From contig JASKMD010000014.1 in the NCBI GenBank assembly GCA_030144725.1, positions 1,310,350 through 1,374,349 of the forward strand: a stretch of DNA of 64,000 nt, read 5' to 3'. Source of the stretch: Haematococcus lacustris (taxonomy: Eukaryota; Chlorophyta; Chlorophyceae; Chlamydomonadales; Haematococcaceae). This document shows positions 11,209-53,491 of this stretch, piece after piece. The notes beneath the pieces were generated by a model that saw only the letters and a list, made by a program, of their open reading frames with translations, searched no databases and was not told the origin of the DNA. Position numbers and translations under genes: made by a program. Every line of letters starts with the position of its first letter. Positions within the stretch are counted from its first letter, which is position 1.

Positions 11209-14200
11209 CTAGCTGCGACTGAGGCTGTGCGCTGGCACAAAGAACATACGGCCGTAGCCCTCCCCATCCTCAAAGCTGGTCACAAAGACTGTGAAGATCT
11301 TGGTGGCGTCAAACATATACCAATGCTGATCTCCATAGCCCTGGTGCATGCTGCCCATGGCTGACTGCTGCGGGCGGTCCTCAACAGGTGGAAGGGGGTC
11401 AGCCTGCCGCTGTGATGCACCGGCTGCGAGCCTCTGGGACTTCCTGGTGCCACCTGTGCTGGCTGCCTCCGCTGCTGCCTGCTCCACGCCACGCTCTGCT
11501 GACCTGTGCTGCTGTGGTCCACCTATACCGCTGGGCCCAGCAGCCCCTTCTGCCTCTCCGTCTGCTGGTGGCTGTCCCCCCCCCTGACCTCCTGCCCCAG
11601 CTGCTGCTCCAGCTCCTGCTGGCTGCTGTGGCACGGGGACAGCCTGGCCAGTTGCTGCCAAGCATGAGGGGTGGGTTGTAGGGCGTGTCAAGTAGATGCG
11701 GCTGACTGCTAGGCGTAGGAACACCCCAGGCAGCTTGGGGTGCTCCAGACGAACCCAGAACTGCACATGGCCAGCCCAAATGGCCCACTTGTCGTCATCG
11801 AGCTCGAACGGGATGCTGACCCAGGTGTTGTTGCGGGTTAAGGGGCGTTTGTACACACTGCTGAACACAATGGTGCCATTGCAGTCTGCCCGCTGGTAGT
11901 ACCGCACTGGATACGGGGGTGCAGGGACAGCGACCCGTCGAGCCTCCTTGGCCTCCTCCTCTGCCTCCCCTTGGGTTAAGACCTCACCGAACACCTGCTT
12001 GACGTGCCATGTGCGCCATGGGGTGGCCTCGTCGCTGTTCTGCAGATCCTGGACTGCCTTCATGCAGCCCCTCATCATGGCACCCGGGCTGTTCTGCAGT
12101 GGGCACTCTGCACTGCCCGCTCCCAGCAGCAGGGCCTGCTGCCCGTCCTGTGTGAGCTCGTCCTTCAGGCGGGCCTTGTAGTCCTGCTGTGCCTCTGGCT
12201 CAGCCCGGTCAAGCAGCCTCTTGCTGGCGTTATGCCCGGCCACCCGCATGGCAATGTGGGCATCCAGCTGGGCTCCAGGAATGCCGCTGGTGGTGATGGA
12301 CTTCAAGTCATGCAGGTCTCGCTCGATCCAGAGCTCGCCAAACAGGTATGTCCTGCCCACATTGCTCTCTTGCATGAACAGCCTGTGCACACCACAGCCA
12401 TGATACCATGTGATGCATGGTCTGCCTGCAGCATGCATGTATTGTTGATGGGTAAGGTTGGCCTGCATGCTACTGTTAAAACTCTCACCTGCAACCCGTT
12501 GTGTGGAGGTTTGGGCAGACTTGGTCAGTAGGCACAGACAGCTTGCCCTCGTTGTCTCCATGCGCTGCTGGAAGCAGAGGATCACGGCGGCAGCGCTCCA
12601 ACCTGGCTGCATAGGTCTTCAGATGTGCATAGCCTGCCGCCATCCCCGCAGGGGTGGCACTGTTCTCCGAGCCTGAATTGGGCAGACAATTCCTCATTGT
12701 TAGATATATGTTAGTCATCATGCAGTGGGACCGTGCCTGTAGATGCTGGTCTGTAAATTACCAGGTGTCAAGTAGTACAGCATAGCGCCCTCCAAGGCTG
12801 TCCACAACCCACGGTAGGGCTCTGGCAAAAGGTTGCCCCGCAACACGATGGGTGAGAAGTGCACATACCAGTGCTTGTAGTCCTCCATGCGCCATCCACT
12901 GCATGATGACATGAGCATTGCAGCACCAGTGCAATCATAAGCGTGTCATGACATGCACCTTGCATAGTCTGCATCTTTGCCTGTCAGTCGTGATATGATT
13001 ATGACATACTGCACTACATGCTTATGGCTTACGTGCGGTTGGCGAGGTCGCCCAGGTCCCGTCCCAAGTCAGATGGGGATTGAATGGCTGCTCCACGCTT
13101 CACTATCTCACGCCGCACATTAATGTGAAGGCCATCTGCACTCATGAACCAATCCAGCTGGTGCTTCAGCAAGCCATACATGAAGCTGTGGTACACAGGC
13201 ACCAGGTGGGCCAACCGGGCGTCCAGGTGTTGCAGCAGCAGGGGCAGGAGGGGCTGGGCGTGGCAGCCCACCACCCTAGGGTCGCCTTGAGACCACCCAT
13301 GGATGAAGGGGGCACCTCGGTCCATGATCTCTCCGTGGGTGAACTTCATGCGCACGTCATAGATGAGCACATACTCCTGCAGTCCACCACCGCAAGCAAG
13401 GATGGTGTGTGCCTAGGGATCCTCGTGTCTGATTTCAATAGCCCATGCTGGTGTTGTGTCAAGTGCTCCATACCTCCCGGTTGGAGCCTGGTAGGGTCTG
13501 CAGCGTTGGCGAGTCGTAGCCAAGGGGCGCTTTCTCTGTAGGGGGGTTGGGTGGCTTGCTGATGTTGCAGTTGTAGCACATCTTCAGGGCGCTGTGGCCC
13601 ATGCCCCTGGTCAAGGTGGCTCTACATGCACACAATCACGCAATTGTGGCCTTAATGGGTGTCATATGTTTGTGGATGGTACATGGCAGGGTACAAGTTG
13701 TATAGGGATAGATTGGACTGGGAGGTGGTGGAACCATGTTTGGTGCAAGCTGTTGGCCTTTGTCTCACTCACGTGGCTGGGGTATCAGCGATCGATACCA
13801 CTGGGACTCCATGGATGCGGACAGGCTCAACACGGGCAGGAGCCACACCATCAACACGTGGGCCTGGGTGTGGCTCCACTATCACACCCAGGTCACCCGG
13901 GCCCTCGATGTGCTTGCTGACTTCCTGGCAGATGGCTTTCATGTAGCCTGTCAGGTGAGACTGGTGCTTCCCCCCGTTGATGACGGCCAACACTGAGCTG
14001 CACGCCCGCTTGCCGCCCACCTCAGCCGGCACATCCAGCAGCCTCAACAGGATCACACCCACTGACCAGGTGCCGTTCTTGCCCATGGTCATCCAGTCAA
14101 CCCCAATCATGAAGTGGGCTGTGTTGGGGGAGGTGGCCACAACCTCTGGTAGCTTGGGCTGCATCTCTCGCCATGCAGGGCCTGCCAAACAACATCACAT

Positions 14201-14775
14201 GGTATGGTGCATGACACTGTACCAATCAACTGGCTATGCGGTCAATTCTATGCCTAGGTCAACCCAAGCCTACTCACTTGCCCGGAAAGAGCCAGGAGGT
14301 GGGTCCACGCCCCGAGCTCGCCTGAACCAGGTCATCACGTCCTTGCGCTCCATGATGTTCTTCACCACTGTGTTCCAGCCGAACAGAGACATGCTCCACC
14401 GAGGCTTCAAGGTGACCTCCTGTGGGCTCCCTGATACCAAGCAAGGGACAGCATACAACCCATTTATACCTCTACAAGTGTCAATAGAGTTTCACCATGC
14501 CCATGTAGATTGGTTCACCTTTTTTCTTGCTCTCAAAGAAGCGAGGCGTCTCGCAGTAGTAGCACTTGTCATCCTTGTGGGCGAGCCACTCAGACCTACC
14601 ATGCATGCACATTAAGGCATCCTTGACCCACACCAACAACATGTGAATTGCGCCATGCATGCATTGCTTAATCCACACCCTTTCCCCTGACCTCACCGTG
14701 TTATCTTCGGGTAGGTGTAGCCTGGGCAGTACTTGTTGTTGGCCTTGTTGTCCTTGCCCGCGTTGCACACGTCTT
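11209..14775 (-). pseudogene. CACTA-like (Tnp2-type) transposase, 5'-truncated copy
   Basis: Near-identical inverse copy of the transposase at 44811-49489. Nine exons can be aligned: about 14775-14697 (part of exon 3), 14595-14519, 14430-14278, 14181-13773, 13621-13474, 13376-13033, 12898-12762, 12672-12489 and 12382-11209. The complete exons have the lengths of the other copy, except that the last is 3 bp longer. Signatures are FMIGVDWMTMGK, SIADTPA, CxxC in MCYNCNISK-type context, and the C-terminal FEDGEGYGRMFFVP. Homology stops abruptly near 14775, so the zinc finger and Gly-rich N-terminal exons are missing. It would not make a full transposase. Confidence 0.85.
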
Positions 14776-14987: not shown

Positions 14988-17316
14988 GACCTGGAGCAAG
15001 AAGTCCAACGTCTCAAGGTAAGATCCACAGCAAGAAATGGGCAGAAGACAGTAGACAGTGTACCTCGTAGCTACCTGGATGGTTGATAATGTACCTTGGA
15101 ACTACCTGAATCGCAGGAGCTCGTCAACAACATGGCGGCAGGAGGAGCAGGGCCCTCAAGCTCACAGGTAAATGTGTGGGTGTGCAGCAGGACCCTGTGG
15201 CGTGGTGCCAGGACCCTGTAGGTGTGCAGCAGGACCCTGTGGGTGTGCAACAGGACCCTGTGGTGCCAGGACCCTGTGGTGAGGTGCCAGGACCCTGTAG
15301 GTGTGCAGCAGGACCCTGTGGTGTGGTGCCAGGACCCTGTGAGCCAGGACCCTGTGGGTGTGCAGCAGGACCCTGTGGCGTGGTGCCAGGACCCTGTAGG
15401 TGTGCAGCAGGACCCTGTGGGTGTGCAGCAGGACCCTGTGGTGCCAGGACCCTGTGGTGAGGTGCCAGGACCCTGTAGGTGTGCAGCAGGACCCTGTGGT
15501 GTGGTGCCAGGACCCTGTGAGCCAGGACCCTGTGGGTGTGCAGCAGGACCCTGTGGCGTGGTGCCAGGACCCTGTAGGTGTGCAGCAGGACCCTGTGGGT
15601 GTGCAGCAGGACCCTGTGGTGCCAGGACCCTGTGGTGAGGTGCCAGGACCCTGTAGGTGTGCAGCAGGACCCTGTGGTGTGGTGCCAGGACCCTGTGAGC
15701 CAGGACCCTGTGGGTGTGCAGCAGGACCCTGTGGCGTGGTGCCAGGACCTTGTAGGTGTGCAGCAGGACCCTGTGGGTGTGCAGCAGGACCCTGTGGTGC
15801 CAGGACCCTGTGGTAAGGTGCCAGGACCCTGTGGGTGTGCAGCAGGACCCTGTGGTGTGGTGCCAGGACCCTGTGGCGTGGTGAAGGACCCTGTGGGTGT
15901 ACAACAGGACCCTGCAGGGATCCACTGTTGATCCAACAGAGCAAATACTGATCCTTCAGACATTTACATATCCAGACGCTGGGTACACGCAGGCTGGCAC
16001 GGAAGTGTTCACCCAGCCAATACACGCTTGGAACTTCCCCATAAACATGAAGGTGCGTGAAAGGCAACGTATCTGAAGCTGCAACAACCCAAATTCATAC
16101 AATCACTTTTGATGCACGTGCAGGGCAAGGTGTTCAAGCAGCCAACGTACAAAGAGTACACGCGCAATGTCTTCAAGCCAGGCCAGGAGGCTCAATGCAG
16201 GAACGCAGCTCAGGCCGAAGGGTTGGCTGTGTATCAGTTGCCCCAGGACGTCCTTCCAGAGTTGAAAGTGATTGCAGCCATCATCTACATCACCCGGGTG
16301 TACTGCAGCATGATCTTCCACTCTGTGAAGCAGCACAAGACAGCGAAGCAGGAAACACTGTACACCACGCTGTATGCCACTGGTCAGAGGCTGCAGGTGC
16401 TGTTAGCCAAGACAGTCAAGGGGACGCTAGACCTCAGCCTCAAAACCCTCATTACCTACACAGCTGTCAACTCTCAGCTGACCGATGAGGACAAAGCCAA
16501 GGTAAGACGTGACATGATTTCAGTACTTGGCACCAGCACTAAGTACGATGCAGCACACACCAACAATGTATGCTCACACCAACAACCCACAACTACAGAC
16601 CATACTAGCCAGAATGATACATGCAAGTGGATGAGCACAAGGAAGTCCTGACTAAGTACTTCACCCGCTTGCTACCAGTCCTGCGGAACCTCATGGACAG
16701 GCCGCTCAATGCCTTGGCATCCATCATCAACGACCCAGTCAACCAGAGGGAGATGATTGGAGAGGGGGAGGAGCAACAAATGCTCATTGAGCCAGCGCAG
16801 CAGGCAGCCCCGCCCCAGGCCCCCCACACGGACTTCAAACCGGTGGCTGCGGACCAGGACGACGGCTTGGTCTTCCTGTTGGCCTGCCAGGACTTTGACC
16901 TGGTGGCCTACATGTACAGCCATTTGCTCATGGAGCAGGCAGCGCCTTACTTCAAGAACGGCAAGCCGGACCTGCACAGCCTGGGAGCCGTGGCCGCCCA
17001 CGCAGTGCTGCGGGAGGGCACCCTGGTGAAGGTGAAGGCAGGCCAGCTGGTGCTGTTCCGAGGCAACACCGTGCATGCAGGGACAGCAGGCAGGCCAAAC
17101 TCCTGCGGCGCCAGGCTGTATGGCTTTGCCAAGACAGGTCAGCCGGCTGACAACACTACCGTCAATGTGTCCCAGCTTGGCCCCGTCTTCGAAGGGGTGT
17201 TCCAGCCAACTCAAGGGGGAACCATCACATCCATGACAGCGGAGTGGAACAGGAGGGGCCAAGCTGGACAGATGGTGCCAGACACGGAGCCTTATGAGCC
17301 TTCTGATGGGATCTGA
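14988..17316 (+). CDS. 2OG-Fe(II) dioxygenase-like protein of a CACTA-like element (5' incomplete)
   Basis: Five exons fit in phase: 14988-15017, 15117-15167, 15918-16052, 16124-16501 and 16627-17316 (427 residues, TGA). The N-terminus is coiled-coil-like (DLEQEVQRLK). The last exon has the double-stranded beta-helix signature: PHTDF (HxD, metal), DDGLVFLLACQD strand, AGQLVLFRGNTVHAGTAG (distal His), and an Arg 13 residues later in GARLYGF (2OG contact). The same order and spacing occur in the gene at 23583-26165. Known families with this fold oxidise DNA bases (TET/JBP, algal CMD1), proteins or small molecules; the substrate here is unknown. The gene is divergent from the transposase. Oddities: a 750-bp repeat array in intron 2, missing 5' exons, and AA instead of AG before 16627, so the last intron may not splice. 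Confidence 0.7.
15170..15917 (+). repeat. CAGGACCCTG array inside an intron of the dioxygenase-like gene
   Basis: Tandem blocks of 178 bp (repeating from about 15190, 15368, 15546), each made of shorter units with the core CAGGACCCTGT and linkers gtgtgcag, gtggtgc and gaggtgc. The array fills the intron between exons ending at 15167 and starting at 15918. The core is the inverse of the 9874-11045 array core. The apparent Cys-Ala-Ala-Gly-Pro open frames are not genes. Confidence 0.95.
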
Positions 17317-17404: not shown

Positions 17405-18177
17405 GCAGGACCCAGAAGTGCCATGACCCTGTGGTGAGGTGCCAGGACCCTGTAGGTGTGCAACAGGACCCTGTGGTGAGGTGCCAGGACCCTGTGAGCC
17501 AGGACCCTGTGGGTGTGCAGCAGGACCCTGTGGCGTGGTGCCAGGACCCTGTGGGTGTGCAGCAGGACCCTGTGAGTGTGCAGCAGGACCCGGTGGGCCA
17601 GAACCCTGTGGTGAGGTGCCAGGACCCTGTGGTGCCAGGACCATGAGGTGAGGTACCAGGACCCTGTGGTGTGGTGCCAGGACCCTGTGGTGTGGTCCCA
17701 GGACCCTGTGGTGTGGTGCCAGGACCCTGTGGGCCAGAACCCTGTGGTGAGGTGCCAGGACCCTGTGGTGCCAGGACCCTGTGGTGAGGTACCAGGACCC
17801 TGTGGTATGGTGACAGGACCCTGTGGGCCAGGACCCTGTGGTGTGGTGCCAGGACCCTGCGGTGCCAGGACCCTGTGGTGTGGTACCAGGACCCTTCAGG
17901 CCCGGACCCTGTGGTGAGGTGTCAGGACCCTGTAGGCCAAGACCCTGTGGTATGGAGCCAGGACCCTGTGGTGTGATGCCAGGACCCTGTGGGCCAGAAC
18001 CCTGTGGTGAGGTGCCAGGACCCTGTGGTGTGATGCCAGGACCCTGTGGTGAGGTACCAGGACCCTGTGGTGCCAGGACCCTGTGGTGAGGTGCCAGGAC
18101 CCTGTGAGCCAGAACCCTGTGGTGTGGTGCCAGGACCATGTGTGGGAAGGCACTCATCGTAGGACCCTGTACAGGGT
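17405..18177 (+). repeat. CAGGACCCTG subterminal array downstream of the dioxygenase-like gene
   Basis: About 45 cores of CAGGACCCTGTGG with linkers (gtggtgc, gaggtgc, gagc, ggtgtgcag). It lies 3' of the dioxygenase-like gene in inverted orientation to the array at 9874-11045, as expected for the two ends of one element. No terminal inverted repeat is recognised at its right edge. Confidence 0.93.
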
Positions 18178-22804: not shown

Positions 22805-23028
22805 TTATTGTCTGCTGCTGCTGCTGCCATTGTGCGGTGCCTTGCTAGTGTGCGCGTGGCCTCAACACTCCTACAATTTAGGGCCTGCGTTTCTCCCTGC
22901 GCTTTGGCCGACTTTGTCCGTTTGGGCTGAAACTCGGCCAGTTGGTAGCTTGTGATGTAAGGAATCCATCCCAAAAAGAATCAGGTCAAAAAAGTCAAAG
23001 GCGGAGGCTGGGCGGCCCGTGGCGTTCA

Positions 23029-23483
23029 CGCAGGGACGGATGCAGGGATGGAGGGGGGGGCGCAGGGACAAACGCAGGGATGGAGGGGGGGGTGCAGGGA
23101 CGAACGCAGGGACGACTTGGGGGCGCAGGGACGAACGCAGGGATGGAGGGGGGGGTGCAGGGACGAACGCAGGGATGGAGGGGGGGCGCAGGGACGGATG
23201 CAGGGACGAGTGCAGGGACGAATGCAGGGATGATGGGCGCAGGGACGAGTGCAGGGATGAGCGCAAGGGTGAGCGCAGGGACGAGCGCAGGGATGACGGG
23301 CGCAGGGATGAGTGCGGGGACGCGCGCAGGGACGAGTGCAGGGACGGATGCAGGGATGACTGACGCAGGGACGAGTGCAGGGACGAGCGTAGGGACGAGT
23401 GCAGGGATGACGGGCGCAGGGACTAGCGCAGGGACGAGTGCAGGGATGAGTGCAGGGACAAGTGCAGGGACGAGCGCAGGGAC
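23029..23483. repeat. GCAGGGAC subterminal array (left)
   Basis: Units of about 10-18 bp built on GCAGGGACGA or GCAGGGATGA, with some ggagggggg linkers. Inverse of the array at 30309-31312. The Ala-Gly-Thr-Ser frames are artefacts. Confidence 0.95.
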
Positions 23484-23582
23484 CTTGCATGACATGTCAC
23501 CTTTGTGTATCCCTAACACTTGCATACTCTGTGTAACCCAACCATTTCAACCATGGTCGTGAAGTATCACATGTAGTCCATG

Positions 23583-26165
23583 TCAATCCTCTCGATCTCT
23601 CTTACTGCGTCCACCCCTGCCACCACCCCTGCCACCACCCCTGCTACCACCCCTGCTACCTTCACCGACTGGCTTTCGCTGGGTCTTGCCACCCTTTCCA
23701 GGCTCAGCCTCCTGCTCTTCTGGCTTTGCTGGTGGCCAGCTTACGCCTGCTGCCTCATACCACTGCTGCTCCAACTGCTTCAGACTTGCCTCTGAGAAGT
23801 CTGGGACTTTAAGCCAATCCTCCACCCACATGGCGTCCTCTTCTTTCCGAGCTGGGGGCTTGTATGGGACCTTAGGCACGTGCTTGCCACCTGCTGCTTC
23901 CCCCTGCCAGGCCGGCACCTTGGGGGTGCTGCCGGTCCTGGGCTCCGTGGTGGGCTGGCACAGGCTGTCAAACAGGCGGCCAAACTCAGCTATGTAGCAG
24001 GTGGTGTCCGACACAAAGCCAGTGGAGGCGTAGAAGTGCACCCGCACTGAGCCTGTCCCCTCCCTGCCCTCATCACCTGCATGGATTGTGTACCCACGCA
24101 TCCCCAGCACCTGACCTGGCTCCAATGTCACCCTCACCACCTCCTGGGCTGTCATCTTCTGCTGCAGGTACTCCTGAAGAGCAGCCTGGCACTCATGGCT
24201 CTTGCCCGGACCGTTCCAGAAATGCTCCACTATCTGGACCCACTTGTGGCTGCGGGGGATGAGGAGGATGCTGACCCGCTGCATGGCCATGATGAGCACC
24301 ATGCCATCACGCCCTGGAATGAAACGCCACTGGATGGCGGGCGGCTTCTGCTTAGGGGATGGCTGCCGGCTGGGGGATTGCTGCCGGCTTGGGGATTGCT
24401 GCCGCCTGGGGGATGGCTGCCGCTTGAGGGATGGCTGGCTGGGACCTGCACCTGTACCTGCTGCCTGGCTGCTGCATGCTGCTGAGGAGGGGGCTTCTGG
24501 CTGGGGAGCGTCTGTCGAGGGGGGTTGGGGTGGGAGCAGGGCTGCTTGTCTTGCCTCCTCCTCATCTGACCACGAAGGCCGCACATCCACATGCAGTGCC
24601 TGAGCTGGCACCAAGCCGGTAGCCCCTTTGGGTTTGCCGTTTCCCAGCATCTTGTACGGGTCGTTGCACAGGATGGTGCCACCACGGAGGGGGGAGTTGA
24701 CCAGCTCGTTGGCCCTGGCCTGGAGGCGCTTCAAGCACGCCTGAGCCCACACCTTGGCAGCCAGGTGGCGTGCCTTGATGGTGGCATCCAGATTCTGGAA
24801 CGTCTGCACCGCTTCCTCTGTCAGCATCCCCGCCATGGACACCTCGTCAGCCAGGCTGCCATCATGTTGAGGGCTGGTGAAGAGCAGCTGTTTGCGCTGC
24901 CCTGTCCCAAACTCAGTCACCACCTCCTGCAAGCAAGCAACACACCATAAGCATGTGCCTTGTTGAGATGGTGTATGTGCGCATGCCAATGATGTGACAT
25001 GTAAGTATTGGGGACTAAGATATAGTCTTGTAAGGCTAGAGTTAGGGATAGGGATGGGGACAGGGCTAGGGCTAGGGCTAGGGCTAGGGCTAGGGCTAGG
25101 GCTAGGGCTAGGGCTAGGGCCAGGGTTAGGGATAGGGTTAGGGCTAGGGCTAGGGATAGGGTTAGGGTTAGGGTTAGGGTTAGGGTTAAACTGAAGGGCT
25201 CAACTCTGCACCTGAGCTCAACCGGACAGGTTAGCTATCATTTGAAGCAGTTGTTCTCACCTCCGTTCCCTGCACCTCTCCCGGTACAACCTTAAGCGTC
25301 CCATCGGTGTTGACAGCGCTCTCTTTGAAGATGATGCGAGCGTAGTGCATGGCCAGCGTCAACAGGGCCCAGAGCTCCTTGGCGATTGGCATGATGTCTT
25401 TTCCAACCACCGTCACTGCATAGCCCTCCTCCTCGACCTCAGCCTTGAACTCCTCCTCCTCTCCAAGCTGGAACTCCCTGCAGATAGCGTTCCTGAAGCG
25501 AGGCCCCATCCATGACAGGGTGCCCGTCTTGCCCTTCTTCTGAGGTGGCTCTTTACCCTGCATAAAATCAACAAGGTCAATGATGGTGCCGTTAGATCTA
25601 CACAACTCGTATGTAGGGTGTGCAAGGCATAGGTGACTTGCAGGCATGTAAGTCATGGAAGTTTAAACATGACGCTGTTATGCAATGCAAGTAAATGACA
25701 AGTGACATGCTGCTTTGGCTCCACTGTCAAACCTGGTCAGCCGCCGCCGCCTTGTCCTGCTGCTTGTGCATCTTCAGGTCAAATAGTCCCTCCATCATGG
25801 CCTCCATCCTCTCTACCATGGCCTGCAATGCGTCCCGCTTTTGCAGCTTGGTCGGTGGGAGCAGGCCGCGCCCCAGGCGGTAGCTCCTCCCTTAATGCAC
25901 GCCGGTGAATACCGGAGTAGTCTTCTTCTTCTTCTCTTCTTCTTCTGCATGGCGTCCAGCTGATGATGCTTGGGTAGCATAGCCACCAGCTTGGCGAAAC
26001 GCTCCTCAAGGGCCTGAATTCACAACATGGATTACTGTCATTGTCAATGCTCTACACATCATCAACATGCATGATGCCCCACATGCTGTACTGACTCACA
26101 GCTTGGCTTGTCGAGTCTCTCTCTGCTGCCGACCTCTTCTTCTCTCCTCCCACTTGGCTGGTTCC
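23583..26165 (-). CDS. 2OG-Fe(II) dioxygenase-like protein (transposon partner gene)
   Basis: Exons from the 5' side: 26165-26100, 26013-25733, 25557-25261 and 24926-23583; the true start is not found. The N-terminal part has basic and coiled-coil stretches (EEKKRS; QAMVERMEAMMEGLFDLKMH). In the last exon, QALHVDVRP gives HxD, a Ser/Gln/Pro-rich insert of about 85 residues follows, then GRDGMVLIMAMQRVSILLIP, VTLEPGQVLGMRGYTIHAG (distal His) and an Arg 13 residues later (VRVHFYAS). It ends in an RGG-rich basic tail (RGGGRGGGRGG). A low-complexity insert within the beta-helix is also known in TET enzymes. Substrate unknown; DNA base oxidation is an inference. The coding phase between 25820 and 25940 is unclear (AGAAGAAG tract), so a small frameshift is possible. 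Head to head with the transposase. Confidence 0.72.
25040..25187 (+). repeat. Telomere-like GCTAGGG/TTAGGG run in an intron
   Basis: About 24 hexamer-like units: first GCTAGGG-type (gctagg repeated), ending in five perfect TTAGGG units at 25158-25187. It lies in the intron between exons ending at 25261 and starting at 24926 of the dioxygenase-like gene. Confidence 0.9.
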
Positions 26166-26506
26166 CTACAATCACACATTCAATGCACGTTCTGGGTCTA
26201 TGTCCCTCACAACTATCTAGATGTACCACACATCAATAACGTCATTATGTGATGTACCTCACATACGGACATCAAGCAATTACGCACAATTACATGCACA
26301 GTCATGCGGATTAGCTCATCAGGCTTTAATGAGTAGGTGCCCATTATCCATGGTTATGCAGATATGAGCGGTTTTCCATACACATACTTAATAAAAGGTA
26401 ATAGAACATCCACATCCACATCCATTGGGCTTAATACCACCACCTCCCAGCACACCTCCAATTCTCCCATACTCCCCTATAGACAATGATGGTGTCTTTG
26501 TGACGC
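26166..26506. promoter_or_regulatory. Intergenic region between divergent transposon genes
   Basis: About 340 AT-richer bases separate the dioxygenase-like gene (-) from the transposase (+). It probably contains 5' exons and a shared promoter; an 'aataaaagg' at about 26389 and 'ctatctagatg' are present, but no motif can be defended as a TATA box. The first transposase exons (zinc-finger part) may lie here and were not recognised. Confidence 0.4.
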
Positions 26507-29500
26507 ATGCCATTATGTGGTGCTGTACATGCCATGACAGAGAGTGGCTCCATTGAGGCACGTAGCAGCATCTACCTTCACGGCCTTCAGGACACCCTGA
26601 ACATCCTCATGAACAACCCCCAAGTCAAGAAGTGGCTCCTGGAGCGCCCAGTGAATACAGAACCAGGCTCCTTTGCAGCAAGTAAGAGTGTGTGCATGAC
26701 AGGTGCATATTGGAAAACAACGACAATAAATCCATAGCCCATCAACGTGTGGTTGATTTGGTTGAATCACATGTAGGCCCTGCCGCTGCCCACATCCGGG
26801 AGCATGTTACGCCTGATGTGTATGATAACCCGTACGCTGTGAGGGTCAGCTTAGGGCTGGACTGGGTGAGCATCAACAAGAAATCAGTGGGAGTGCACTT
26901 TCATGATTGTCATGCAGGTGAGAAATCATGATTGTCATGCAGGTGAGAAATCATGATTGTCATGAAATCATGATTGTCATGCAGGTGAGCAAGCAACCTA
27001 GTATCCTTGACACCACACATTGACTTGCCCCTACATACACAACCATCAGTGCAACACCCAGCCAGTCAATGCAGGTTGACACCATGCATAGCTTTTCACT
27101 CATGCCCGCCTTGTGTTTTGTTGTCTGTGAGCTCCAGTTGGTGGACGTCCCAGATCATGTGCGGGGCAAGGACGACACCTGGGCCATCCTGGGCGTCATC
27201 ATCGACAACAAGACTTCAGCTGACTCGCATGTCACCGGCTACATGAAGCCCATCTTTGAGGCTTTCCAGGGAGCGCTGGGACCAGACAGCTCCAAGCACG
27301 TCCACCTGCGCAGTGAGGCCTTTGGCGACCGCCCCATTGAGGTCCCCCGGCTGTACCCTATCGTGATCAGTCTGGTGGCAGACACTCCAGCCAGGCAAGT
27401 TGTTACAACCAGAGGTGCACTATGTGGCTGGCCTCACAATGTCTTCACCAACATGTGGCACCCTGCGTTTGCAGGGCTGCTTGGTCTGGTGGCATGCAAG
27501 CGGGCGCCAACATGAACTGCATGTGGTGCTGGCTCAGTACCCCAAAGCATGGCAAGGAAGGAGTCCATCCCATGGGCTACGTCGAACCTGTGGACGCACC
27601 TACTATCCCCCCAGCAGTCAGACCTCCAACGCCTCTGGCTGCCGGTGAGGCAGCTCCAGCCAAGGTGCATATGATGGATGCGTGCATGCGCCTGACGGCT
27701 GAGGAGTTCAAGCTGCGGGGAGACCTGGTGAAGGCCGCTCTAGAGCATGGGGGTCAGGAGCATGTGGGCCTGAAGCCTGGCCAGCATGGTTGTAACCGCC
27801 CTGCTCTCATCCTGGAGTTCCTTCGGTACGTGGAGGGCACGTGGGTCCATGTCGTGCCCATAGCCCACAGCCTGCTTTTTGGGCTGGTGAAAAACCACCT
27901 GCTGTGGCTGCTTTCTACCAAGGAGAACAGCCCTTTCGACACCCATGAACGCAAGCTCATTGAGGAGCGCTTCAAGCACATCCGCGTGCCAGTTGACTAC
28001 GGACGCAAGCCCCATCACAGTGTCAAATGCAGGTACGATGACAAATCAACAGGGGCAATGGGAGCAACACTAGCATAACTGGGACTAGGGCAGCACAGGA
28101 GTGTAAGACAAGGAGTTGCTATGCAATGTTTGTAACTGTGACTAATTGTGCTTAAGGTAGGAGCATATACACACGAGATGAATATGTTGTGTTTGCATTG
28201 CAGTGCCTGGATCATGGACGACTACATGAACTTCCTCAAGCATGAGTGGGAGTACGTGTTCTTGGACATCATCAAGCGCAACACATCCAGCCGGCGACTT
28301 CACTTTGAGCTGTGGGAGCACCTGGTCCAAGCCGTGCTGCACTATCTGACGCCAGGTATGTAGGTTGTAGATGTAGCTGAGGTACTGATGTTACCAGGAC
28401 CACCATAAGGATCACCATCATGGAGTGCTCTGATAACACAGTCAAATGCTACTTTTGCCAGGTGCTGACACACCTGCAACAGTGGGGGCCAACATCCAAA
28501 AGGGCTTCGACAACCTGCTCGACTACGCTAAGAAGCTGGAGAAGCACAAGGTGGAGCTGCATGTCCCGGCCCACATGTTCTCTCCCAACCTCCATATGTG
28601 TGTATGCCGGTGAGTGAGCAGTAGGGCGTTGATGTCAGATACTCCACCATCTTCGAGACCAATAGCCCCTCCTAGTTTATGACCACGAATAAGATAGCCT
28701 ATAACACCCCTCCAAAGGTAACTATGATGCTCACTTACCATGTACCTATGATTTCTAATGCAGTGCATTGCTTGTTGTGATGTGCGCAGGCTGCTGTATC
28801 AAGAGCTGCAACGTGGCCGCAGCTTTCGTGATGCTGAGTTTTGGTTGGAGCGTGCCATGCAGTACATGAAGCGCTGGGGAGGCAAGCATGCACCTGGTTC
28901 TACCATTGGCCTCTCAGCCTGCCTGCGTGAGAAGGTGTACCGCCGAGTGTACCGCCAAGCTCAGCGTTTCCTGCACAAGATCCGGGCGCTGCAGGGTGGG
29001 GAGGATGAGGAGGGTGGGCACCAATCGCAGCAGGGAGCAGAGGGTGAGCCGATGGGGTCACAGCGGGGGGGGGCAGGGGATGGTTCGAGTTACCTGGTGG
29101 AGCGCCCCAACAGTGGGGCTGGTCAGGTCCGGGCCCCCACCACAGCAGAAGACACCCAGCCAGAGGCGGAGAGGAACTGCCAATTGGTTGGCGCTGGATA
29201 CCGTCAGTGCCCAGTCACGGGTGGGGAGCAGTGGGTGCGCCAGGCGGTCTGCACTATGGTGGGGGAGCTCAATGCTGGGTTGAATGGTGAGGGCAGCGGC
29301 TGGTGTGAGCAGGACGTCCTCGACCTGTTCTCTACTCCCCCTACCACCAGTGGTGCCCCTGCCCAGCCCCCTAACGTGCCAGGGCGGGTATGGTACTTCA
29401 CCCGTGCAGAGTGCACACAGCAGTTGATGTTCAGTGTGGCGTACAAGTGTGCAAAAAAGCGCAACAACAGTTGGGCCATGGATAAGTACTACTACAGAGC

Positions 29501-30230
29501 CAGCTTGTCCACTGTGAACGAGTATGCGGCCCACATTCAGTTCTGGGTGCGACTAGAGCACCCAATCATCTCAGGCCGCTTCCTGCGAGTGGCCATCGCA
29601 AGGCTGTTCCCCATCTACCCTGTGGGTGGCCTGCCCAACTTGTTGCATGGCATGGGCCCTGAACCAGAGACAGCAGAGGCAGCAGCAGCAGCCGCAGCAC
29701 GCACACCCGGGCGCAAGAGACCAGCCCCACAGGACACAGCGGCCAAACGGCGGGCAACAGGTCCAAAACCAGCAGCTGCAACAGCAGCGACATCAGCAGC
29801 AGGAGCAGCGGCTGCAGCAACAGCAGCAGCAGGAGAAGCAGCAGCAGAAGCAACAGCAGGAGGAGCAGGGGCAGCAGCAGCAGAGGCAGCAGCAGGAGAA
29901 GCAGAGGCAGCAGCAGCAGCAGCTCCGCCAGACGGTGCTGGCCCCTCTGTTCCGCCCCCCCACAATGGTGGGGCCAAAGGAGGACAACGCCGCTCAAGCC
30001 GTGTGGCCAAGGGGCCAGCCACCGTCCCACAGGAGCAGCCAACCCAGGCAACCATACCCTACCATCGGCGCGCCAAGTTCAGGACAAAGGAGGCAGGTGC
30101 TGGTCCTGCTGAGTGGTTTGCAGTGAATGGGGAGCAGCTGCACACTCTGTTCGTGTCCTTCTTCCCCACAGGCGAGGGCCATGGGGACATGTACTTTGTT
30201 CCATACAACAGCCTCAGCAAGCAGCACTAG
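26507..30230 (+). CDS. CACTA-like (Tnp2-type) transposase, second family
   Basis: Homologous to the 44811-49489 transposase exon by exon. Segments: about 26507-26681, 26777-26865 (or to 26917), 27075 (or 27132)-27394, 27475-28032, 28204-28355, 28462-28609 and 28790-30230 (TAG). Signatures: VSLGLDW (first Asp), SLVADTPAR (second Asp), GMQAGANMNCMWCWL (CxxC), HVVPIAHSLLFGLVKNHLLW, VLHYLTPG, HIQFWVRLEHP and the C-terminus GEGHGDMYFVPYNSLS. Residues after about 29660 are Ala-rich from a GCA/CAG run. The intron after 27394 has a GC donor. The 5' exons with the zinc finger were not found. It should cut and join the CACTC ends of its family. Confidence 0.78.
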
Positions 30231-30308
30231 ACACTGTCACAGTCGTTCAGGCCACATCATAATGATGAGAATGTGCTGATTGTAATCAGGTTGCGCCAAT
30301 CATCAATA

Positions 30309-31312
30309 CACTCGTCCCTGCACTCGTCCCTGCACTCGTCCCTGCACCCCCCCCCTCCATCCCTGCATTCGTTCCTGCACCCCCAGGTCATCCCTGCACT
30401 CGTCCCTGCGTCCCTCCTTCCATCCCTGCACTCGTCCCTGCACTCGTTCCTGCACTCATCCCTGCACTCGTCCCTGCACTCGTCCCTGCGCCCGTCGTCC
30501 CTGCACTCGTCCCTGCACCCAGAATCCCTGCAATCGTCCCTGCGCTCATCCCTGCACTCGTCCCTGCGTTTATCCCTGCGCTCGTCCCTGCGCTCATCCC
30601 TGCACTCGTCCCTGCGCCCGACATCCCTGCGCTCGTCCCTGCGCTCATCCCTGCACTCGTCCCTGCGCCCGTCGTCCCTGCACTCGTCCCTGCGCCCGTA
30701 ATCCCTGCACTCGTCCCTGCGCCCGTCATCCCTGCACTCGTCCCTGCGCCCGTAATCCCTGCGCTCGTCCCTGCGCCCATCCCTGCACTCGTCCCTGCGC
30801 CCGTCATACCTGCGCTCGTCCCTGCGCTCATCCCTGCGCTCGTCCCTGCGCTCATCCCTGCACTCGTCCCTGCGCCCTTAATCCCTGCGCTCGTCCCTGC
30901 GCTCATCCCTGCACTCGTCCCTGCGCCCGCCATCCCTGCGTTCATCCCTGCGTTCATCCCTGCGCTCATCCCTGCACTCGTCCCTGCACTCGTCCCTGCG
31001 CCCATAATCCCTGCGCTCGTCCCTGCGCTCATCCCTGCACTCGTCCCTGCGCCCATAATCCCTGCGCTCGTCCCTGCGCTCATCCCTGCACTCGTCCCTG
31101 CGCCCATAATCCCTGCGCTCGTCCCTGCGCTCATCCCTGCACTCGTCCCTGCGCCCCCAGGTCATCCCTGCGTTCGTCCCTGCACCCCCCCCTCCATCCC
31201 TGCGTTCGTCCCTGCACCCCCCCTCCATCCCTGCGTCTGTCCCTGCACCCCCCCCTCCATCCCTGCGTTTGTCCCTGCGCCCCCCCCTCCATCCCTGCAT
31301 CCGTCCCTGCGT
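30309..31312. repeat. GCAGGGAC subterminal array (right)
   Basis: About 1 kb of TCCCTGCACTCG/TCCCTGCGCTCA units, the inverse of 23029-23483 and twice as long. It ends just inside the right inverted repeat. Open frames are artefacts. Confidence 0.95.
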
Positions 31313-31476
31313 AAACGCCACGGGCCGCCCAGCCTCAGCCTTTGATTTTTTTGACCTGATTCTTTTTGGGATGGATTCCTTACATTACAAGCTACCAACT
31401 GGCCAAATTTCAGCCCCAACGGACAAGGTCGGCAAAAGCGCAGGGAGAAACGCAGGGCCTAAATTGTAGGAGTGAA

Positions 31477-43700: not shown

Positions 43701-44600
43701 ACCCCTTACCTAAAATCGCCGACTCGGCCTTACTCACCACGAGTGACATCATACAGCAAATTAGGTTGGTTACATGGCTACACCATTCATTGTACTATCA
43801 CCTGGCCCACAGAACGCGGGCACCACATCCGGATGTATTTGGGGGCGAACTTGCCCCAGAGATCGGACGCATCTTTCTGCAAGCATGCATTGGGTATAGA
43901 TAACCAAGGTGACATGGGCAGTAATGACTTAAGGCTATGGTCAATTGTTGTGTGAACACTACACTAACCTCATATTTGCCCAACGCGCTGAAGGGCTTGT
44001 CGGCGTTGGGTGCATGATCTCTGAACTGAAATCACATGGCCACGATGGGTCATGGTTAGCAAAGGACATTGAGGCACAGGCAACGTGGCCACAGCAAATC
44101 AGGCAGCATAGGCACGCAACACCATGCTCACCCGCTTGAGGAGGATCTTGCTGAACTCATCAGGGACCCGCTTCCCCCCTTTGCGCGTGCGTTTCTTGGC
44201 TGGCCCATGCTTATGCTTCTCTTCCTCATCCTCCTCGTCCTCCCCCTCCATCTCCTCCTCGTCCTCCCCCTCATCCTCCTCCCCCTCCCCCACATCCTCC
44301 AGGTCCTCCTCCTCTCCCACCCCCTCCCCTTCATCACCAGAAGAGGCAAAAGGCTCAAGGGGCTGCTCCATTGGTCGCTGGGCCAAAGGCAAGTCCTCGG
44401 ACTCGTGCCCAGAGTCAGCTGAGCGAGGGGCTGCAGCCTTAATCTGCAGCAACGATAGTTCAAGAGTTAATGAAAGCATGAAGGTGCCTGGCACGGTAAG
44501 GCATCGCGGCAGGCAGGCGGTATTGATACAGGAATTACTATACCTTCTTGGCGGTGGGCTTGACGCCGATGTGCTTCTTGGCGAGCGTGTTGCGGTACAT
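31761..44600 (-). CDS. Partner protein (569 aa) of the large CACTA-like element; gene split by a nested element
   Basis: Eight exons join in phase to 1710 bp: 44600-44544, 44443-44132, 44025-43969, 43876-43802, 33369-33081, 32863-32712, 32628-32560 and 32459-31761. Intron 4 contains the whole 33409-43745 element; without it the intron would be about 95 bp. The start is [10 protein letters not shown] strongly acidic stretch (residues about 45-95) and a basic [10 protein letters not shown] follow, then [18 protein letters not shown], a hydrophobic [13 protein letters not shown] segment and an Ala/Gly-rich low-complexity tail. I do not recognise the family: no HxD motif, zinc finger or DDE is visible. 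Its place, head to head with the transposase, is the one held by the dioxygenase-like gene in the 22866-31474 element, so an accessory role in transposition is inferred. Confidence 0.7.
32899..33066 (-). repeat. CAGGACCCTG run in intron 5 of the partner gene
   Basis: Eight to nine cores of CAGGGTCCTG (as read on +) with linkers ctgcacacctac and tacctcaccac. On the gene's strand it is the same unit mix as the intronic array at 15170-15917 of the dioxygenase-like gene. Confidence 0.9.
33721..34293. repeat. GAAACCCTGCAC-type subterminal array (left)
   Basis: Mostly read on + as ccttgtgcagggtttcg. Blocks of about 104 bp include actatgatttcacctaagtc. The orientation is opposite to the arrays at 37197-37403 and 43379-43610, except for the first unit. 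Confidence 0.93.
34294..35697 (+). other. Element body with intron-like modules
   Basis: No defensible gene. CT-rich tracts lie at 34915-35035 and 35185-35285. Intron-like modules (gtgagtgg, cagcctaaccg, cttgtttgctgcag) occur at about 35069-35148 and 35572-35651. GGAGCRGCAGCC repeats fill 35360-35430. Confidence 0.55.
35698..36162. repeat. ACCCC pentamer array
   Basis: About 93 perfect copies of ACCCC. It lies between two intron-like modules, the same place the AGCCC arrays take in the ATCTGT elements. His-Pro-Thr-Pro-Pro and Gly-Trp-Gly-Gly-Val frames are artefacts. Confidence 0.98.
36163..36572 (+). other. Intron-like module and CT-rich stretch before the relic exon
   Basis: 36169-36246 is a further intron-like unit (gtgagtggccagc to ttgtttgctgcag). 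C-rich sequence and GGAGCRGCAGC repeats follow up to the relic exon. No gene. Confidence 0.5.
36573..36683 (+). pseudogene. Relic of the last transposase exon
   Basis: Reads [32 protein letters not shown], then LSRS and TAG. It matches the C-terminus of the transposases here (FDATKIFTVFVTSFEDGEGYGRMFFVPAHSLSRS-type). Nothing of the rest of the gene is visible upstream, so this non-autonomous element derives from an autonomous one by internal loss. Confidence 0.85.
36684..37196. other. Spacer with repeated 'catgagtcagctg' phrases
   Basis: No gene. Several 40-60-bp imperfect repeats contain tgtgtagc, gagtcagctgccatg and gtcatg. Confidence 0.45.
37197..37403. repeat. GAAACCCTGCAC subterminal array (right, part 1)
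   Basis: Units gaaaccctgcacacggtc and gaaaccctgcactaggtc. The array is split at 37403 by the gypsy element and resumes at 43379. Confidence 0.92.
37404..37773 (-). repeat. 3' LTR of the chromovirus
   Basis: 370 bp, TGTTACAG at the left to CCTGTTACA at the right edge. A pyrimidine run next to it (37774-37789) is the complement of the polypurine tract. Confidence 0.95.
37774..37789 (-). promoter_or_regulatory. Polypurine tract of the chromovirus
   Basis: On the minus strand it reads GCGGGGAAGGGGAGAG directly before the 3' LTR, the usual primer for plus-strand synthesis. Confidence 0.85.
37870..41532 (-). CDS. pol: Chromovirus pol: protease, RT, RNase H, integrase, chromodomain
   Basis: Counted from the slippery site the frame has 1220 residues; its first internal Met is at 41286. 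Order: protease-like [13 protein letters not shown] (DGG in place of the usual D-S/T-G); RT with [26 protein letters not shown] and YLDDILIFS; RNase H with [15 protein letters not shown]; integrase HHCC ([22 protein letters not shown]), DDE core ([35 protein letters not shown]); and a C-terminal chromodomain ([26 protein letters not shown], quoted in parts: [21 protein letters not shown]). It reverse-transcribes and integrates the element; the chromodomain may steer it to modified histones. No stop or frameshift is visible inside. Confidence 0.95.
41529..41541 (-). promoter_or_regulatory. Putative -1 ribosomal frameshift site between gag and pol
   Basis: On the minus strand the gag codons CCA AAA AAA TAG form a heptamer A-AAA-AAA in the correct phase directly before the stop. 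A -1 slip reads ATA GTC and continues in the pol frame. I have not checked for a stimulating RNA structure. Confidence 0.75.
41529..42395 (-). CDS. gag: Chromovirus gag
   Basis: 288 residues, [11 protein letters not shown] to NKFGPKK. A capsid-like retrotransposon gag region ([37 protein letters not shown]) is followed by a single CCHC knuckle, [14 protein letters not shown], near the C-terminus. Gag packages the RNA in virus-like particles. The gene ends in TAG directly after an A7 run, so part of the translation should shift into pol. Confidence 0.92.
42404..43048 (-). CDS. ORF upstream of chromovirus gag, starting in the LTR
   Basis: A 214-residue frame starts at an ATG in the 5' LTR (43048), passes through the primer-binding region and ends 8 bp before gag, in another phase. 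It has Pro-rich parts and a short coiled-coil-like [20 protein letters not shown]. It could be an N-terminal gag extension reached by reinitiation or a shift, or a chance open frame. Conservation in other copies would decide. Confidence 0.45.
   Translation of the reverse strand: MQPCILGSWLYCNTWFPRIRSPCAVSAIPETVADLVDELESLEAPPANPPPVRPTREAIPYPAFSSGSARGTGRLAHQSGPSRGRGRNTPGTSARAAHSVTAEPDCTHCQYYKAAADSSHKLIQELRNDKAELQQRLDAFVQRSLTPHQYLPQQSAPQFYSAPVASFPQFAPVPCEFFVPPTPPALLPAPPAPAQSHNSIGFHLRKAYKAPRQN
42990..43008 (-). promoter_or_regulatory. Putative primer-binding site of the chromovirus
   Basis: Next to the 5' LTR the minus strand reads CT then TGGTTTCCACGTATTCGA. The inverse ends in CCA and carries a TTCGA-like T-loop, as a tRNA 3' end would. 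The tRNA is not identified. Confidence 0.6.
43009..43378 (-). repeat. 5' LTR of the chromovirus
   Basis: 370 bp, same sequence as the other LTR by eye. The transcription start and promoter should lie within; no TATA motif is claimed. Confidence 0.95.
43379..43610. repeat. GAAACCCTGCAC subterminal array (right, part 2)
   Basis: Continuation of the array split by the gypsy element, with units gaaaccctgcacacggtc and gaaaccctgtgcacggtc. It is followed by the subterminal inverted-repeat sequence to 43745. Confidence 0.9.
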
Positions 44601-44810
44601 TTTAAAGGATGTTGTTGCGGGTTGGCAAGACGGGCACAACACGATGTAGCGATTGTTACTCACGAAATTCACGTCCAAGCCACAGGTAACCAAAAGTCAC
44701 TTTGTCGGCCAGCAAGCGACGCCGGGTGGGTACACAGAGAGCGGGCCGCGATGGCCCAGCGGGCACAATGTGACCATTTGCTCTCCAGGCTTCCCAAGAC
44801 ACAGGCAATC
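44601..44810. promoter_or_regulatory. Short divergent promoter region of the large element
   Basis: 210 bp between the start codons of the partner gene (-) and the transposase (+). A shared bidirectional promoter is likely from the layout. No motif can be named. Confidence 0.5.
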
Positions 44811-47800
44811 ATGGTGAAGATAGCCTTTCAATGCCTAGTGTGCGGAGAATCAGGCGGCATAAAAGGAATGCGCACTCACTGTTCCCAGCGCCATCCCCAG
44901 TTCGTGGGAGCCGAAGGCACGAAGGCTTGGGCAGAGAGCCAGGCTATGGCGAATGCTCAGTCCCCAAGTGCTCAGCAACACGCATCGCAAGAGTCGGCAG
45001 TAAGATGTCGCTTGCTTTTAGTTAGTACGTGCTGACTGCATGTGCGCATGAGGCAGCTAATGCGTGCACCTCATCGCGGACAATTTGCGCCGCAGGCCAC
45101 ATGTTGTCCGCATGTTGTGACGACATGTGTGCAGGGGAGCTGTGGAGATGGAGGAGGGGTGGATGAGGACGGGCAAGGAGATGGAGGAGGGGTGGCTGAG
45201 GACGGGCAAGGAGGCAGGGATCAGGCAGCCCCAGCGGGACAAGAGGGTGGCAGGATTCCAGAGGGTGCATGGAGAGGACAGGGAGGAGGGGACGAACAGC
45301 GTGGGAGGGGATAGGAGGACAACAGGGGGGGACAGCGCGGAGACAGAGAAGAGGGGGATGTAGGAGGAAGGGGAGGAGTCGACGGAGGAGGGGACGGAGG
45401 TGACAGTGATGACAGTGGGAGTGAAGACAGTGATGAGGAAGGGGATGGGTATCCAGGAGGTCCAGGAGGTCCAGGAGGTCCCGGTGGTCCAGGAGGTCCA
45501 GGAGGTCCCGGGGGTCCAGGAGGTCCAGGAGGTCCGGGGGGGCCAGAGGGGGATGAAGGAGGGGGGGACGGCGCCAGGGTACGTCGAAGCAAGGTGTTCA
45601 AGCTTGATGCCAACCTTCAACAACCCGTGTTCAGGTACTTAGAAATAACATATAATAGTATCACAAGCAGTGAGTTGTTCAGTATAGTTGTTGCTTGTCT
45701 TTGTCCATGCCATTACAGGAACTGCCCCTTGACAGGCAAGGACCTAATGGACAAGCTGAGCCAGCTTTTGGACATGAGGCTGACCAAGGAGCAGATGAAG
45801 GGGGTGTTGAAGCTGCTCCGTGCGCTACTTGCAAACCAGCCTGATCTCAACCTCATCACCAGCTTCTACCAGCTGATGAGTTTGCAGGGCGTCCAGCACG
45901 CAAATGAGTACGAGGTGCATGTGTGCAACGCGGGCAAGGACAACAAGGCCAACAACAAGTACTGCCCAGGCTTCACCTACCCGAAGATACGACGGTGAGG
46001 TCAGGGGAAAGGGTGTGGATTAGGCTATGCATGCATGGCGCATTACACATGGTGTTTGTTGGGGTCAAGGTTGCCTTCATGTGCATGCATGCATGGTAGG
46101 TCTGAGTGGCTCGCCCACAAGGATGACAAGTGCGACTACTGTGAGACGCCTCGCTTCCATGTGAACAAGAAAAAAGGTGAAACCAATCTACATGGGCATG
46201 GTCAATTTCTAATGACACTTGTAGAGGAATACATGTGTTGTAGGCTGCCCCTTCCTTGGTTACAGGGAGCCCACAGGAGGTCACCTTGAAGCCTCGGTGG
46301 AGCATGTCTCTGTTCGGCTGGGACACAGTGGTGAAGAACATCATGGAGCGCAAGGACGTGATGACCTGGTTCAGGCGAGCTCGGGGCGTGGACCCACCTC
46401 CTGGCTCTTTCCGGGCAAGTGAGTAGGCATGGGTTGACCTAGGAATGGAATTCACAGCATAGCCAGGTGATTAGTACAGTGACATGCACCATACCATGAT
46501 GTTGTTGTTTGACAGGCCCTGCATGGCGAGAGATGCAGCCCAAGCTACCAGAGGTTGTGGCCACCTCCCCCAACACAGCCCACTTCATGATTGGGGTTGA
46601 CTGGATGACCATGGGCAAGAACGGCACCTGGTCAGTGGGTGTGATCCTGTTGAGGCTGCTGGATGTGCCGGCTGAGGTGTGCGGCAAGCGGGCGTGCAGC
46701 TCAGTGTTGGCCGTCATCAACGGAGGAAAGCACCAGTCTCACCTGACAGGCTACATGAAAGCCATCTGCCAGGAAGTCAGTAAGCACATCGAGGGCCCGG
46801 GTGACCTGGGTGTGATAGTGGAGCCACACCCAGGCCCGGGTGTTGATGGTGTGGCTCCCGCCCGTGTTGAGCGTGTCCGCATCCATGGAGTCCCAGTGGT
46901 ATCGATCGCTGATACCCCAGCCACGTGAGTGAGACAAAGGCCAACAGGTTGCACCTACAAATGATTCCACCACCTCCCAGTCCAATCTATCCCTATACAA
47001 CTTGTACCCTGCCATGTACCATCCACAAACATATTTCTCCCATGAAGGCAACAATTGCGTGATTGTGTGCATGTAGAGCCACCTTGACCAGGGGCATGGG
47101 CCACAGCGCCCACAAGATGTGCTACATCTGCAACATCAGCAAGCCCCCCAACCCCCCTACCGAGAAGGCGCCCCTTGGCTACGACTCGCCAACGCTGCAG
47201 ACCCTACCAGGCTCCAACCGGGAGGTATGGAACACTTGACAAACTCGACAGCATGTGCTATTGAAATCAGACACGAGGATCCCTTGGCACACACCATCCT
47301 TGCTTGCGGTGGCGGACTGCAGGAGTATGTGCTCATCTATGACGTGCGCATGAAGTTCACCCACGAGCAGATCATGGACCGAGGTGCCCCCTACATCCAT
47401 GGGTGGTCTCAAGGCGACCCTAGGGTGGTCGGCTGCCACGCCCAGCCCCTCCTGCCCCTGCTGCTGAAACACATGGACGCCCGGTTCGCCCACCTGGTGC
47501 CTGTGTACCACAGCTTCATGTATGGCTTGCTGAAGCACCAGCTGGAGTGGTTCATGAGTGCAGATGGCCTTCACATTGATGTGCGGCGTGAGATAGTGAA
47601 GCGTGGAGCAGCCATTCAATCCCCATCTGACTTGGGACGGGACCTGGGAGACCTTGCCAACCGCACGTAAGCCATAAGCATGTAGTGCAGTATGTCATAA
47701 TCATATCACAATTGACAAGCAAAGATGTGGACAATGCAAGCTGCATGTCATGACACGTTTATGGTGCTGAGTGCTGATGCAATGCTCATGTCATCATGCA

Positions 47801-53146: not shown

Positions 53147-53491
53147 CACTCCTACAATTTAGTCCCTGCGTTTGTCCCTGCGTTCTACCGACCTTGTCCG
53201 ATCGGGCTGAAATTTTGAAAGATGGTAGTTTGCAAAATATAAAACATATTTTTCAGAAAGAATATTTTGAAAAAATCAAAGGCGGCTGCGCTGTGGCCCT
53301 GGGGCGTAGGTGCAGGGATGAGTGCAGGGATAGGTTGCGGGCCACAGCGCAACAGCTTTTGGATTTTTCCAAATATATTTCTAGAAAAATATGTTTTATT
53401 TTCTGAAAACTGCCATCTATCAAATTTTCAGCCCGATCGGACAAGGTCGGTAGAACGCGGGGACAAACGCAGGGACTAAATTGTAGGAGTG
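53147..53491. mobile_element. 345-bp MITE of the CACTCCTACAATTTAG family
   Basis: The termini CACTCCTACAATTTAG equal those of the autonomous element 22866-31474. TIRs extend for at least 70 bp (gttctaccgacc, ttgtccgatcgggctgaa) and more weakly to the centre. TG duplications lie at 53145-53146 and 53492-53493. Only two or three GCAGGGAC-like units remain inside. Confidence 0.92.

Follow-up and report, generated by a model that had tools for sequence, protein, structure and literature searches.

A PhyH-type 2OG-Fe(II) oxygenase-like gene linked with CACTA-like transposons of Haematococcus, and its possible role against silencing

Introduction

In the green alga Haematococcus lacustris, a gene with the motifs of a 2OG-Fe(II) oxygenase lies beside a transposase-like gene. 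The locus raises the question of whether the oxygenase belongs to a transposon, which kind of oxygenase it is, and what it would do for the element. The window analyzed here is a stretch of 64,000 nucleotides of contig JASKMD010000014.1, and all coordinates refer to it. A sequence-only reading had placed the gene at 23583..26165 on a CACTA-like element, had related it to TET/JBP enzymes, and had suggested that it could let the element erase its own DNA methylation.

The focal element and its two genes

The focal element and a small relative have the following parts:

22866..31474, no strand, whole focal CACTA-like element, 8.6 kb (inverted arms and ends read directly)
22866..23028, plus strand, left terminal inverted repeat, beginning CACTCCTACAATTTAGGGCC (arm comparison, ends read)
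23029..23483, no strand, left subterminal tandem array with GCAGGGA cores (core count)
23583..24926, minus strand, oxygenase last exon with HVD, low-complexity insert, TIHAG, Arg at +13 and a C-terminal RGG/KR tail (PhyH match at E=4.2e-4, below Pfam's curated cutoff)
25261..25557, minus strand, oxygenase middle exon, upstream part of the protein, EEEGYAVTVV...HYARIIF (spliced frame)
25733..25819, minus strand, oxygenase first exon in the shortest frame that is intact, MVERMEAMMEG... (spliced frame)
26534..30230, plus strand, transposase-like gene, assembled from seven segments by means of anchors (some splice sites not exactly placed; DW, ADTPA, CxxC and a His in common with other elements)
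30309..31310, no strand, right subterminal tandem array, whose TCCCTGC cores have the inverse orientation to those on the left (core count)
31311..31474, minus strand, right terminal inverted repeat (arm comparison, ends read)
53147..53491, no strand, 345-bp element with five GCAGGGA/TCCCTGC cores (first 16 bp are those of the focal element)

The arms of the focal element, 416 nt long, inverted and 92% complementary, start at 22866 and finish at 31474. The end sequence is CACTCCTACAATTTAGG, with its complement at the other end, so that the termini are 5'-CAC...GTG-3' inverted repeats as in CACTA/EnSpm elements. Outside CACTCC...GGAGTG, AA is found at both ends and may be a 2-bp target-site duplication. 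The 345-bp element is flanked by TG on both sides and is read, from its sequence, as a non-autonomous relative of the focal element. Such 2-bp matches (AA/AA and TG/TG) arise by chance about once in 16 each, and the flanks of neither element match over 3 bp. The subterminal arrays consist of units of ~12 bp and are directed inward, with 31 GCAGGGA cores in the left part of the element (22866-23583) and 72 TCCCTGC cores in the right part (30231-31474).

The two genes are divergent, with ~0.7 kb between their starts. The plus-strand gene, which starts at 26534, is very likely the transposase of a CACTA/EnSpm-like element, because it has conserved motifs and the element has terminal repeats. It shares DW, ADTPA, CxxC and HS...GL.K with the transposase-like protein of another element of the window (element 3, below), to which it is 32% identical over the conserved part, each protein having been joined from pieces. 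Judged by the DDE/C(2)C/H(3-4)H pattern, it has two conserved Asp contexts, a CxxC and a conserved His; the third acidic residue and the H(3-4)H are not fixed. A Pfam scan of this gene matched no family.

Reading the translation of the oxygenase confirmed the motifs that had been claimed for its last exon. The exon's ORF (24926-23586, 447 aa) has ALHVDVRP, a Ser/Pro/Gln/Arg-rich insert of ~85 residues, and then DGMVLIMAMQRVSILLIPRSHKW and VTLEPGQVLGMRGYTIHAGDEGREGTGSVRVHFYAS, with an Arg 13 residues past the distal His and a C-terminal tail rich in RGG/KR. The PhyH match of this exon covers the distal half and scores 21.1 bits, just below the curated cutoff of 22. The gene is present as proposed; its start had to be revised. 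A GT-AG spliced frame runs without interruption from an ATG at 25819 to 23583 and encodes 575 aa, and the family profile described below matches ORF 25662-25234, in the middle-exon region, at 1.1e-5. The 5' end is uncertain: more exons towards 26165 are possible, yet there is an in-frame stop near 25890. An intron of the gene contains a telomere-like GGCTAG/GGTTAG repeat of ~25 units of 6 bp at 25034-25185.

Related elements in the window

Two further elements of the window carry parts that resemble those of the focal element:

11215..14413, minus strand, element 1 transposase-like gene (tblastn pieces 25-35% identical to the focal one; ORFs)
16061..17313, plus strand, element 1 oxygenase, HTD...VHAG...R(+13) (BLASTP, PhyH profile)
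17418..18142, no strand, CCAGGACCCTGT array directly past the element 1 oxygenase stop (array count)
44339..44812, minus strand, stretch in element 3 matching the annotated N-termini of P0030 and P0051 (tblastn, family profile on window ORFs)
46515..49483, plus strand, element 3 transposase-like gene (tblastn with the focal one; ORFs)

In element 1, the oxygenase gene also stands head to head with the transposase-like gene. It reads APHTDFKP ... DDGLVFLLACQDFDLVAYMYSH ... VKVKAGQLVLFRGNTVHAGTAGRPNSCGAR, again with the Arg at +13. It is 30% identical to the focal exon over 159 aa (BLASTP, E=6e-16) and 28% over the core, and matches Pfam PhyH at 7.3e-4 (20.3 bits). A terminal inverted repeat was looked for in element 1 and none was found. 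Over 45921-50830, element 3 is 92.9% identical to 14770-9868 of element 1, in 4935 columns that hold the transposase. The family profile found no oxygenase domain in element 3 over the window ORFs. With tblastn, the oxygenase relative P0030 matches 44339-44812 at 70-72% identity (E=3.5e-25) and a second one, P0051, at 70-83% (E=1.5e-16); since their annotated N-termini are those of gene models, they may be fusions.

A Gypsy-type LTR retrotransposon with a chromodomain adjoins the truncated oxygenase gene of element 3; it lies at 37401-43378, has LTR-like ends that agree at 99.7% over 373 bp, and carries a pol ORF at 41547-37870. A remnant of another element occupies 31730-36680. It has a minus-strand gene, of which the piece at 33291-33190 matches the beginning of P0036 at 97% identity, and a relic of a transposase C-terminus at 36582-36680. 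At 18370-19561, sequence resembling the inner part of the focal terminal repeat adjoins a GTTCAGTGTTTTCAGTGCATG array; this is probably where one more related element, again with an array of its own, ends. The window also holds two inverted copies, ~93% identical, of a repeat with ATCTGTACAGAT palindromes spaced every 24-25 bp (2640-4634 and 20993-22804), and a duplicate segment with CAACCAGTACTGGTTTATTCC arrays, 97% identical over 1.3 kb (51126-52428 and 59913-61213).

The oxygenase family and its catalytic residues

In the last profile search, 7997 candidates with exact words in common were scored, and 59 proteins matched at E<=10, the weakest at 3.3e-9. These are 56 Haematococcus proteins, two labelled Bosea and the window's own; P0008 brings the set to 60. 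Among the 7997 exact-word candidates, the family is found in Haematococcus only, save for two short 'Bosea' contigs. The proteins of the latter, P0010 and P0063 (encoded on contigs 1.2-1.3 kb long), share 89-93% identity with the focal oxygenase, and the bacterial assembly probably includes stray algal DNA. When alignment A6 (element 1 plus third type) and the focal exon were run against viral_contigs and genome_contigs, by a method that reaches close relatives only, there were 44, 109, 1 and 8 pattern matches, and none was confirmed as a relative. Weak matches of the family profile to array ORFs and to ORF 33690-32779 were read as translated array within the alignment's gene models and rejected.

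By identity, without a tree, three types of oxygenase can be told apart: the focal type (including P0064, 37% identical to the focal exon), the element 1 type, and a large third type, of which three sampled members are 55-57% identical to element 1. The Haematococcus protein P0006 is up to 89% identical to the focal exon, and P0013 is 98% identical to the element 1 exon, matches that by themselves suggest Haematococcus as the source of the window. Alignment A5 (55 members) joins the three window exons with 52 of the 60 proteins, leaving out P0006, P0018, P0019, P0028, P0052, P0058, P0060 and P0061. For residue counts, one spurious row, that of a window exon short of the site, was dropped. In the rows that cover each site, the metal triad is invariant (H228 51/51, D230 51/51, H311 52/52), and R324, presumed by analogy to bind 2OG, is kept in 51/52; the exception, P0012, is a gene model ending there.

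Conservation of the metal and 2OG residues in other copies, the lack of which would have told against the sequence-only reading, is seen: of all 60 proteins, 55 have HxD and 56 have the distal His together with Arg at +13. HxD is absent from P0006, P0007, P0008, P0010 and P0028, and the His and Arg from P0006, P0012, P0063 and P0065. P0007, P0010 and P0028 begin past HxD, and P0012, P0063 and P0065 stop short of the Arg. The gene model of P0008 skips HxD, where its relative P0012 has HVD; P0006 begins past HxD and has lost, in addition, the stretch that bears the distal His and Arg. All four residues (H, D, H, R) lie within the 28 of 180 A5 columns that are at least 98% identical, one spurious row having been removed and 6 of 186 columns skipped as holding no focal-type letters. 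If columns are exchangeable, the chance that the four named columns all fall among the 28 is 0.0005. The catalytic motif is thus more than a chance resemblance.

Linkage with transposons and their arrays

The head-to-head pairing of oxygenase and transposase, which had been claimed for the focal element, is seen in two diverged elements, the focal one and element 1. The first 52 residues in the gene model of P0059 read antisense to the C-terminus of a transposase, at 94% identity to element 1, which is once more the head-to-head order. Among the 60 proteins, 23 contain at least three translated words of the CCAGGACCCTGT array in their gene models. All 23 have at least three words after HxD (P0009 and P0037 also have some before it), which parallels the CCAGGACCCTGT array past the element 1 oxygenase stop. 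The remaining 37 are without the mark at the three-word threshold, seven of them having one or two words. The focal gene fits what had been proposed, an oxygenase-like gene on a CACTA-like element, and we regard its oxygenase nature together with its linkage to the transposon as very probable.

The array core differs by element type, being GCAGGGA or CAGGACCCTGT, and type-specific cores would suit an array-directed action. CpG in the arrays is at an observed/expected ratio of ~1.0, versus 0.36 and 0.43 in the genes of the focal element and 0.45 in the window. In 67 seven-base array spacers, the first variable CpG site reads CG in 33, CA in 34 and TG in 0, and the second reads CG in 47, CA in 14, TG in 4 and other in 2. 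No clear pattern of deamination is seen: deamination on both strands should yield CA and TG equally, so that the variants are read as inherited unit variants rather than as a footprint of methylation.

Some members have additions outside the catalytic core. Of the 30 with more than 230 residues before HxD, 9 have KKRR or KRPR and 4 another basic pattern, and 17 have no basic stretch of the kinds sought. By eye, many long members have a coiled-coil-like stretch before HxD. Basic tails are present in focal-type members.

The oxygenase probably belongs to the PhyH branch

The sequence-only reading had called for profile and fold comparison with TET/JBP, AlkB and PHYH. Pfam PhyH matches 48/55 A5 members at E<=0.1 (best 1.7e-6), P0007 and P0008 being among the seven that it does not match. 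Eleven families match the 55 members at this threshold, and no TET/JBP or AlkB profile is among them, in a database that we take to include models of both kinds. PF05721 is listed in the precomputed column for 29/59 relatives. For the 55 members, nothing usable came from NCBIfam, where the lowest E was 0.011, or from PHROGs, where it was 0.0032, to a family without a named function. The proposed kinship to TET/JBP finds no support in these profiles.

No usable model (pLDDT 35) was obtained when the structure of the focal exon was predicted from three sequences. The predicted beta-helix was recovered in a relative, P0011 (87% identical to the element 1 exon, 27% to the focal exon), whose model, the best of five with a mean pLDDT of 58.8, has the double-stranded beta-helix fold. 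Its listed fold matches point to the PhyH-type branch, and no TET/JBP entry is among these 50. The nearest solved structures among them are, judging in part by title, oxygenases that act on small molecules in antibiotic and fungal metabolite pathways; OkaE, AsqJ, FtmOx1, KanJ and SnoN are presumably PhyH-type 2OG oxygenases. By sequence, no PDB entry emerged as a significant relative (lowest E values 1, 0.76 and 0.11); the match at 0.76 is DhiD, which the fold search ranked too. Together, sequence profiles and listed fold matches point to a PhyH-type oxygenase rather than TET/JBP. The algal family shares with PhyH-type 2OG oxygenases (PF05721) the fold, the HxD...H...R motif and the Pfam profile. 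Characterized PhyH-type oxygenases act on small molecules. Unlike them, the algal family is transposon-borne and has N-terminal stretches and basic tails added in some members.

A proposed role and its alternatives

In the proposed mechanism, the PhyH-type oxygenase would be a long-standing second gene of a CACTA-like DNA transposon family in Haematococcus. It would be made together with the transposase, enter the nucleus, and be brought, alone or with the transposase, to the element's own arrays. There it may oxidize a silencing mark on DNA or chromatin, which would keep the element expressed and mobile, as has been proposed for the TET/JBP genes of fungal transposons. A nuclear enzyme kept by selection on transposons would most plausibly aid the element against its host, and mark erasure is, we infer, the likeliest role. 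For the explanation as a whole, a PhyH-type oxygenase as the transposon's anti-silencing second gene, we estimate a probability of about 0.5. The anti-silencing step itself, argued by analogy, is held tentatively, at somewhat less than even odds. We know of no PhyH-type enzyme that acts on DNA. A sequence-directed eraser of DNA or chromatin marks, with each diverged oxygenase paired with its own array, is a possible but doubtful form of the mechanism.

The oxygenase may instead hydroxylate a protein (the transposase, a histone or a polymerase subunit) and so tune transposition directly rather than erase a mark. The conserved active site, the pairing with the transposase and the basic stretches in 9/30 long members would all suit such an enzyme, whose substrate the sequence leaves unconstrained; no PhyH-type transposase hydroxylase is known to us, and the large array that each element owns would be left unexplained, so that we consider this rather unlikely. 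Gene capture by transposons is well established, and since the nearest solved structures among the matches listed are, judging in part by title, oxygenases of small molecules, a metabolic gene captured from the host and without a role for the element has to be considered as well. It is improbable: the oxygenase has the same place and orientation in two elements whose transposases have diverged (25-35% identity per tblastn piece), 23/60 relatives adjoin element arrays, and all four catalytic residues are kept, whereas passengers tend to decay.

Two further explanations are still less probable. The position of the gene and the arrays resemble those of En/Spm and TnpA (passages of PMC10398659), and focal-type members have basic tails, as would suit a TnpA-like array-binding protein that uses the fold as a scaffold without catalysis; near-invariance of HxD, H and R across subfamilies only ~28% identical makes this very unlikely. 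The chances are equally slim for a very diverged TET/JBP enzyme. Fungal PE-type TET/JBP was recognized by structure comparison alone, according to part of PMC12730594, so that sequence searches can miss such enzymes; against this stand the PhyH matches of 48/55 members with none to a TET/JBP profile, and the 50 listed fold matches without a TET/JBP entry. The anti-silencing oxygenase of the PhyH branch thus stays our preferred reading.

Relation to known systems

En/Spm (CACTA) elements are like the algal elements in their CAC..GTG ends, dense subterminal repeats, and transposase with a second gene. Spm subterminal repeats are about 12 bp, and TnpA is not known to us as an oxygenase, nor VANC (below) as a 2OG oxygenase. 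Unlike in En/Spm, the algal transposase-like gene has no Pfam match, and the possible duplication is 2 bp, not 3. TnpA has been linked to demethylation, and VANC of VANDAL elements is described as an element-encoded anti-silencing protein, with element-specific non-coding arrays that diverge between families (passages of PMC10398659). The algal elements share such element-specific, diverging non-coding tandem arrays; array-directed action is here a prediction.

Fungal DNA transposons, including EnSpm-type ones with CAC..GTG ends, carry a TET/JBP second gene in many copies, from which the author infers escape from silencing (Kojima, 2025; passages of PMC12730594). A 2OG-Fe(II) oxygenase as second gene is common to both systems; the fungal enzyme is of the TET/JBP branch (passages of PMC12730594), whereas the algal one is PhyH-type and from a green alga. 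CMD1, the Chlamydomonas TET homologue, acts on 5mC (passages of PMC12730594), with vitamin C as co-substrate; it is likewise a green-alga oxygenase, of TET type where the transposon enzyme is PhyH-type. The two analogies that the sequence-only reading had drawn, to fungal transposon TET/JBP and to TnpA and demethylation, are thus in print (passages of PMC12730594 and PMC10398659) and remain analogies. A term search of the main text of PMC12730594 found no 'green alga', 'PhyH', 'phytanoyl' or 'AlkB', and no paper on PhyH with transposons was found in the open-licence PMC literature. The principle is known from fungi, and a PhyH-type enzyme on an algal transposon looks new.

Significance

Selfish elements with their own anti-silencing factors are a live topic, with fungal TET/JBP and plant VANC and TnpA as examples. 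If the proposed role is true, oxidative anti-silencing encoded by transposons would have been invented a second time, independently, in the algal elements. To our knowledge this would also be the first nucleic-acid or chromatin role for the PhyH branch, and would extend an enzyme family known from small molecules to a new class of substrate. Diverged oxygenase/array pairs in one genome would offer a natural test of own-array recognition, and an algal counterpart of PhyH type would imply that oxygenases were recruited by transposons for counter-silencing on more than one occasion.
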